Shown: piece by piece, positions 1 through 465 of the stretch
How the letters are laid out: every line of letters starts with the position of its first letter
Numbering within the stretch: position 1 is the first letter of the stretch
From: Bacteroidales bacterium
GTDB taxonomy: Bacteria; Bacteroidota; Bacteroidia; Bacteroidales; WCHB1-69
DNA: 33,068 nt
Assembly: GCA_031285725.1 (NCBI GenBank)
Contig: JAITVP010000104.1
Location: 1 to 33,068 of the forward strand
Direction: 5' to 3'
Notes under the pieces: model-generated
What the model was told of the DNA's origin: nothing
The model's input: only the letters and a program-made list of their open reading frames with translations
Databases searched by the model: none
Translations under genes and position numbers: made by a program

Positions 1-59
1 CTCAAACCTGTCAGCGAACGGAAAGTTTTTGGATTATTTTTATGCTCGGTATATTTCAT
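1..59 (-). CDS. 5' end of a putative IS transposase (partial, runs off the left edge)
   Basis: Minus strand from 59 reads MKYTEHKNNPKTFRSLTGL with no stop to the edge. It resembles the N-terminus of Bacteroidota IS5-like/DDE_Tnp_4 transposases (...F.SLTGL...). A TATCTTTG -7 box lies just upstream. Confidence 0.5.
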   Translation of the reverse strand, partial: MKYTEHKNNPKTFRSLTGL

Positions 60-63
60 GAGG

Positions 64-71
64 CAAAGATA
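64..71 (-). promoter_or_regulatory. Bacteroidota -7 box TATCTTTG for the left-edge transposase
   Basis: CAAAGATA on + strand; matches TAnnTTTG, 4 nt from the ATG. Confidence 0.5.
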
Positions 72-109
72 CGCACATGCGCGTTATATAACAAATCTAA
101 TTTACGTAA

Positions 110-381
110 ACTCTATTATAAAGACATGTCAGGATTGTGAATTTAGAAACATGTGTTATGATGCGAGATTACCTGTAAAAGAGGGGGATCATTGGCGTTA
201 TGAATCAAATTGCACCTATAATCCGTACATCTGTAAATGGAAAGGGCAAGAAGGATATGTTCCGGTGGAAGAGTGTGGCGGTTACATCAGGGAGAAAGGC
301 TTTGTCCTTGATCATAAAAAGATTAAAGAGCTAAATAAAGAGATATGGGGAGAAGACGATGACACGCAACTATCCTCATAG
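110..381 (+). pseudogene. 3' remnant of a grasp-with-spasm system SPASM-domain peptide maturase (GwsS-like)
   Basis: C-terminal residues TCQDCEFRNMCYDARLP...YESNCTYNPYICKWKGQEGYVPVEECGGYI...KIKELNKEIWGE match the Cys-rich SPASM tail (CxxCxFRxxC...CxYNPY...W...EECG) as I recall it for GwsS proteins. Only about 85-90 aa remain and there is no radical SAM core. The upstream part of the ORF (58-110) lies by the transposase. Confidence 0.55.
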
Positions 382-465
382 GACAATTTAAAGTCGTTCT
401 ACTATGACCATTAGAATTACAGAAGCTTTATAAAGAATTGAGCAACTCAAAAAGATATTCACTTC

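Follow-up and report, generated by a model that had tools for sequence, protein, structure and literature searches.

The window is the whole 33,068-nucleotide stretch of DNA that was analysed, contig C96 of a Bacteroidales assembly of 2.11 Mb in 197 contigs (94.6% complete), and its base 1 is the contig start. At this edge the end of an IS-like element meets the 3′ end of a gwsS gene, the maturase gene of grasp-with-spasm loci. The features are as follows:

1 to 113, minus strand: right end of an IS-like element; the start of a divergent ORF from base 59 (first 19 codons), then the terminal sequence ...TTTACGTAAACTC
114 to 115, no strand: TA adjoining the IS end, a presumed target-site duplication; a TA follows all six right ends and is present in the C104 copy
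58 to 381, plus strand: chimeric ORF of 107 amino acids, in which about 19 IS-derived residues are fused in frame with the gwsS tail
116 to 363, plus strand: 3′ end of gwsS, namely the final ~82 codons, from the constant SPASM module (Cys-poor subclass), matched by TIGR04193 and by profile A1
382 to 461, plus strand: downstream flank of the gwsS tail, of which 403-461 recurs on contig C22
466 to 1113, minus strand: flavin reductase-like gene (Pfam PF01613, E=3.6e-15), the right-hand border, outside the gws remnant

An earlier note, made from the letters alone, had read the first plus-strand ORF as the Cys-rich SPASM tail of a GwsS-type maturase, and profile searches bear this out. The 107-residue protein matches TIGR04193 (SPASM_w_grasp, NCBIfam) over model positions 290-333 of 342 with E=3.1e-7, and the score of 30 bits is, as one would expect of a fragment, far under the 175 bits set as cut-off for a whole protein. 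Profile A1, whose 13 GwsS rows include the window piece itself, covers the tail over its last 82 positions (300-381) with 151 bits and E=9e-44. By these matches the window piece is a fragment of a TIGR04193 member and not itself a member. It reads CQDCEFRNMCYDARLP...CTYNPYICKW...EECG...IKELNKEIWGEDD, and its frame is free of frameshifts and stays open across 82 codons. At the place of the normal gwsS stop it has GACACG, against GAGTAG in contig C121, and so the frame runs on for about six codons, to 381. The first ~19 residues of the ORF (MRQRYAHARYITNLIYVNS) are IS sequence and not gwsS, as is everything before position ~113; the N-terminal leader-binding and barrel part is absent from the tail, with IS sequence upstream of base 114. 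A Pfam search of the remnant gave no match. No gwsG (TIGR04192) lies next to the tail, whose left side is beyond the contig, and it is there that double-glycine precursor genes would be expected. To the right follow flavin reductase-like, helix-hairpin-helix and phosphorylase-superfamily genes. Window bases 403-461 (59 bp) recur at 97% identity on the minus strand at the start of contig C22 (L018, 42-100), near metK.

The IS-like ORF that the earlier note placed upstream and divergent is real: it begins MKYTEHKNNPKTFRSLTGL on the minus strand from base 59, with just 19 codons inside the window, and searches for its family gave no match. Bases 1-113 recur, 100% identical, at the edges of five other contigs (C2, C37, C101, C114 and C121, the C114 copy lacking the first 10 bases), and in 6/6 contig edges a TA stands directly after the right end of the element. 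The terminal inverted repeat and the target site that the note had proposed to look for were both found, the former as a matching inverted end (TA, then GAGTTTACGTAAATTAG) that forms the end of a seventh contig, C89, and the latter as the TA at 114-115 and at the other right ends. Read inward from the C89 end, in the reverse frame, the sequence gives the C-terminus of an ORF, RLRANSFVERIFATCAALHNLKIKIKTWTYKN, and a Pfam search with these 32 residues gave no match. On contig C104 a decayed copy of the same gwsS region runs uninterrupted across the insertion point (GCAAATAAGAATATTATAAGACATG), with no IS and with TA at the same place (AAGAATATTATAAG). The element is thus multicopy, has terminal inverted repeats and adjoins a constant TA, as an insertion sequence does, and its insertion at TA is well supported, because the six shared right ends, the inverted C89 end and the uninterrupted C104 copy all speak for it.

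Elements that insert at TA include some of the IS5 and IS630 types. The element in the window resembles such elements in its terminal inverted repeat, in the TA at all its ends and in a single ORF running inward from the right end, but it differs from them in being known from its two assembled ends alone, its interior not being in the assembly. The stretch of ~118 bases common to the contig edges would be what a k-mer assembler leaves at a repeat that it cannot resolve. Since the bin holds one left end (C89) against six right ends, the two flanks of the window's copy, and their TAs, cannot be paired, and the 5′ half of gwsS may sit on an unbinned contig. We sought the IS end in the 103 other genomes of the family and in plasmids, with no match. 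A 508-residue ORF of the SPASM-type radical SAM kind (L062 on C89, 7958-9586) adjoins the sole left IS end of the assembly.

Intact grasp-with-spasm loci have gwsS downstream of one or more genes for double-glycine precursors, of gwsG, which encodes the ATP-grasp ligase, and of a small ORF of the LPL type, often with a C39 peptidase/ABC transporter after gwsS. The small ORFs tested against NCBIfam gave no precursor-family match. Within the present genome gwsG occurs on contigs C25 and C121 only, so the ATP-grasp partner for which the earlier note had suggested a search is present in the genome and missing beside the window tail. On C25 both genes are intact, gwsG scoring 305 bits and gwsS 172 bits, and a small ORF of the double-glycine type lies close by; C121 carries an intact gwsS (266 bits) beside a gwsG that is cut by the same IS as in the window, also in frame. 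The window tail shares with GwsS proteins of TIGR04193 the segment CxxCEFRxxC...CxYNPYIxxW, and its intact relatives in this genome adjoin gwsG; it differs in keeping the last ~82 codons only, in having YDAR where the canonical sequence is TDCR, and in having no partner genes beside it. Two repeats of about 130 bp, 93-94% identical, lie adjacent to one another on C37 (L011, 193-446) and 2.7 kb apart on C121 (L009, 6473-6602 and 9276-9411).

The same genome holds three further pieces of gwsS, all of them free of IS sequence. Contigs C24 and C131 each keep only the last ~50-57 codons of the gene, 95-97% identical to C121, and the C131 tail directly follows the stop codon of a gene for an S41 peptidase. 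The C104 piece is an internal, frameshifted gwsS fragment that lacks the 3′ end of the gene and is 93% identical to the window piece over 60 bp. A few hundred bases from it lies a radical SAM/SPASM-like ORF (L016, 3493-5460; ORF at 4815-3493, minus strand), accompanied by two double-glycine small ORFs (5158-4871 and 5460-5182, minus strand). The window piece reaches upstream to residue ~293, further than the tails on C24 and C131, which start at 320-325. Because three fragments in this genome are free of the IS, and because there are more in its relatives, gwsS tails must also arise by deletion, and the earlier note's simplest reading, truncation by the IS, holds in so far as an IS end abuts the 3′ end of gwsS in the window and is incomplete as an account of such pieces.

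The earlier note had also made much of the missing radical SAM core. A CX3CX2C motif before the SPASM part was found in 0/96 full-length GwsS proteins, and its absence therefore does not set the window fragment apart. The AlphaFold2 model of an intact GwsS has a mean pLDDT of 95, and its best Foldseek matches are CteB (5why) and SuiB (5v1q), at low query-normalised TM-scores of 0.3-0.36; TbiB1 with its leader peptide (5v1v) is matched with a probability of 0.98, again with a low query-normalised TM-score. A sequence search of the PDB with GwsS gave no match, and the C-terminal part carries the SPASM domain PF13186 at 22 bits. Given these fold matches and the lack of CX3CX2C, we read the N-terminal part as a leader-binding-like domain followed by a degenerate barrel. 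In the model, GwsS appears to resemble SuiB and CteB, radical SAM-SPASM enzymes of sactipeptide and ranthipeptide synthesis, in the order of its parts, leader-binding-like, then barrel, then SPASM, and it departs from them in lacking the radical SAM cysteine triad and in its TM-scores of just 0.3-0.36. The N-terminal module probably recognises the precursor. The window piece falls in a Cys-poor subclass of GwsS together with C25, L051 and L052; the subclass as listed comprises L017, L051, L052, L049 and window 116-363. In its fuller members the SPASM cysteines are replaced, with NTYFNRKLFI for NTCLNRKxCI and CxDxR for CTDCR, and this replacement suggests loss of an iron-sulphur site.

Comparison of the 96 full-length GwsS, most of them from loci in metagenome assemblies, points to a protein made of two modules: a variable N-terminal module of ~235 residues and a constant C-terminal SPASM module. 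Tandem or same-genome gwsS copies are 38-55% identical in nucleotides (20-35% in residues) before the SPASM part, and after a sharp break near residue 234 the same copies reach 80-97% nucleotide identity in the clear cases; one same-genome pair, L092/L103, is an exception and is alike along the whole gene. A two-rate fit puts the break at residues 233-247 in C121 numbering (FFTESQxHNTCLNRK) in 14 of 17 mosaic pairs, with gains of 27-176 in lnL for pairs that are not all independent of one another. Pairs of gwsS with a nucleotide identity of 0.85 or more in the C part fall into two groups by their N part, one with 0.87 or more and the other with 0.54 or less. Of 23 paralogues, 13 have their closest relative within their own genome when judged by the C part, against 2 by the N part, and 2000 label shuffles of the C part gave a mean of 0.4 and a maximum of 5. 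Homogenisation of the 3′ module within genomes thus holds for about half of the paralogues and not for all. We had considered it as a general rule and rejected it, the C parts of the pair in genome G020 being closer to those of other genomes. A strong difference in rate between the modules could account for part of the contrast; rate alone is argued against by the identity at fourfold sites of the C part, which is 24/26 in the L145 pair and 33/41 in L071/L074. GwsG has a weaker form of the same two-part pattern.

Orphan gwsS tails like those described above also occur elsewhere in the family. Among 104 genomes they were found away from contig ends in G086 (two of them), G019, G013 and G006. 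In G086 (L179, G086:C9, 3912-16412) four direct repeats, 91-100% identical, flank successive RiPP cassettes that contain S41 peptidases, an FGE-like protein and precursors; each repeat either runs from the gwsS tail through the start of the C39 transporter into downstream sequence or comprises just that downstream sequence. Outside the family, the second cassette of Taibaiella soli (L091) has the first 98 codons of gwsG joined straight to a gwsS tail, and in L145 a duplicated block of 97% identity has ~42 gwsG codons joined to gwsS from about profile position 274. Both arrangements look like duplicated cassettes after the loss of their maturase genes.

We consider it likely that the window holds a dead gwsS remnant, cut by a multicopy IS at TA, and that this belongs to a larger pattern of a two-module GwsS whose cassettes are exchanged and pruned; the same good confidence extends, jointly with the remnant and the two modules, to the claim that orphan 3′ tails recur across Bacteroidota as what is left of cassettes after loss of the maturase genes. 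The multicopy IS, inserting at a TA, would have cut the last ~82 codons of the SPASM module from the part upstream. Across loci, homologous recombination would exchange or duplicate cassettes, with the constant SPASM module and the flank 3′ of it as the common landing place. From redundant cassettes gwsG and the 5′ part of gwsS would later be lost, so that orphan 3′ tails stay behind; the window tail would have been such a leftover, or a whole gene, when the IS struck it. What the sequences show directly is the fragment, the IS end with its TA, the two-module pattern and its break near residue 234, the orphan tails, and the deletion joints in two other species; precursor recognition by the N module, homologous recombination as the mechanism and the course of events at the window are inferred. 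We lean, by a small margin of belief, towards a further step, in which GwsS is a variable-constant mosaic: its precursor-recognition module, the precursor and the ATP-grasp ligase would be swapped as one cassette, entering by homologous recombination at the constant SPASM module and 3′ flank, and the precursors of cassettes that have lost their maturases would be processed by the enzymes of a neighbouring cassette.

Two accounts of the window itself deserve weight, and we regard each as a serious possibility that somewhat less than convinces us. The first is that a simple IS insertion split an intact gwsS, whose 5′ half, gwsG and precursor lie just past the IS, on a contig that was not assembled or not binned. 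The remnant frame, open over 82 codons, fits this, as does the gwsG on C121, which makes it plain that the IS does strike gws genes. However, the 94.6%-complete assembly yielded neither a 5′ half nor a gwsG or precursor that goes with the tail, a search with the full GwsS protein as query returned known loci only, and the 10 kb to the left that the earlier note had proposed to extract does not exist, the window beginning at the contig edge; moreover, the IS-free pieces on C24, C131 and C104 indicate that fragments form without the IS as well. The second is that the fragment was already an orphan tail, with gwsG and the 5′ part of gwsS deleted, when the IS landed. Orphan tails recur in this genome and its family, and the related C104 copy is likewise a fragment; against this, the window piece extends further upstream (residue ~293) than the C24 and C131 tails (320-325), and its frame is intact.

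It is very improbable that mobile or retro-type copying of 3′ ends spread the tails as 5′-truncated copies. Most orphan pieces do keep the 3′ end and vary at the 5′ end (C24, C131, G019, G086), but several copies lie inside RiPP loci with downstream transporter starts and flanks, the C104 fragment has no 3′ end, and the internal deletion joints in L091 and L145, where 5′ codons of gwsG run into the tail, lead us to set this account aside. Scarcely credible, finally, is the idea that ORF 58-381 is expressed from the IS end and yields a small protein with a function: the fusion is in frame at two sites (the window and gwsG on C121), but chance alone would put both of two fusions in frame once in nine times, the ORF holds little over half of the SPASM module with no leader-binding part, and its C104 counterpart is frameshifted.

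PMC8939145 describes Bacteroidetes graspetide loci with very diverse precursors next to closely similar ATP-grasps, and with duplication and horizontal exchange. Our intact relatives resemble its Branch 5 loci in combining an ATP-grasp, a SPASM protein, an LPL small protein and diverse double-glycine precursors; they differ in that the SPASM protein, there named a radical SAM enzyme, here lacks the CX3CX2C triad in 96/96 cases. According to PMC13097080, some graspetide ligases require partner proteins, and a SPASM protein always accompanies one group; PMC10352776 mines Bacteroidales RiPPs. We found no description of a GwsS mosaic or of orphan tails in a text search of these three papers, subscription literature lying outside the search, and no mention of recombination, hypervariability or pseudogenes in PMC8939145 by the same means; nor did the term 'grasp-with-spasm' appear in the literature searched, with subscription papers again outside it.

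Taken alone, the remnant is an ordinary one, a piece of a gene from a known family that an IS has cut. Of more interest is the module structure: in a widespread peptide-modification system of Bacteroidota, a sharp and repeated break divides a swappable module from a constant one. If this is true, it would explain how close bacterial relatives make unrelated modified peptides, it would tell annotators that orphan SPASM tails are the scars of cassettes and not genes, and it would offer, at residue ~234, a ready-made modular joint for probing which part of GwsS sets the choice of substrate.
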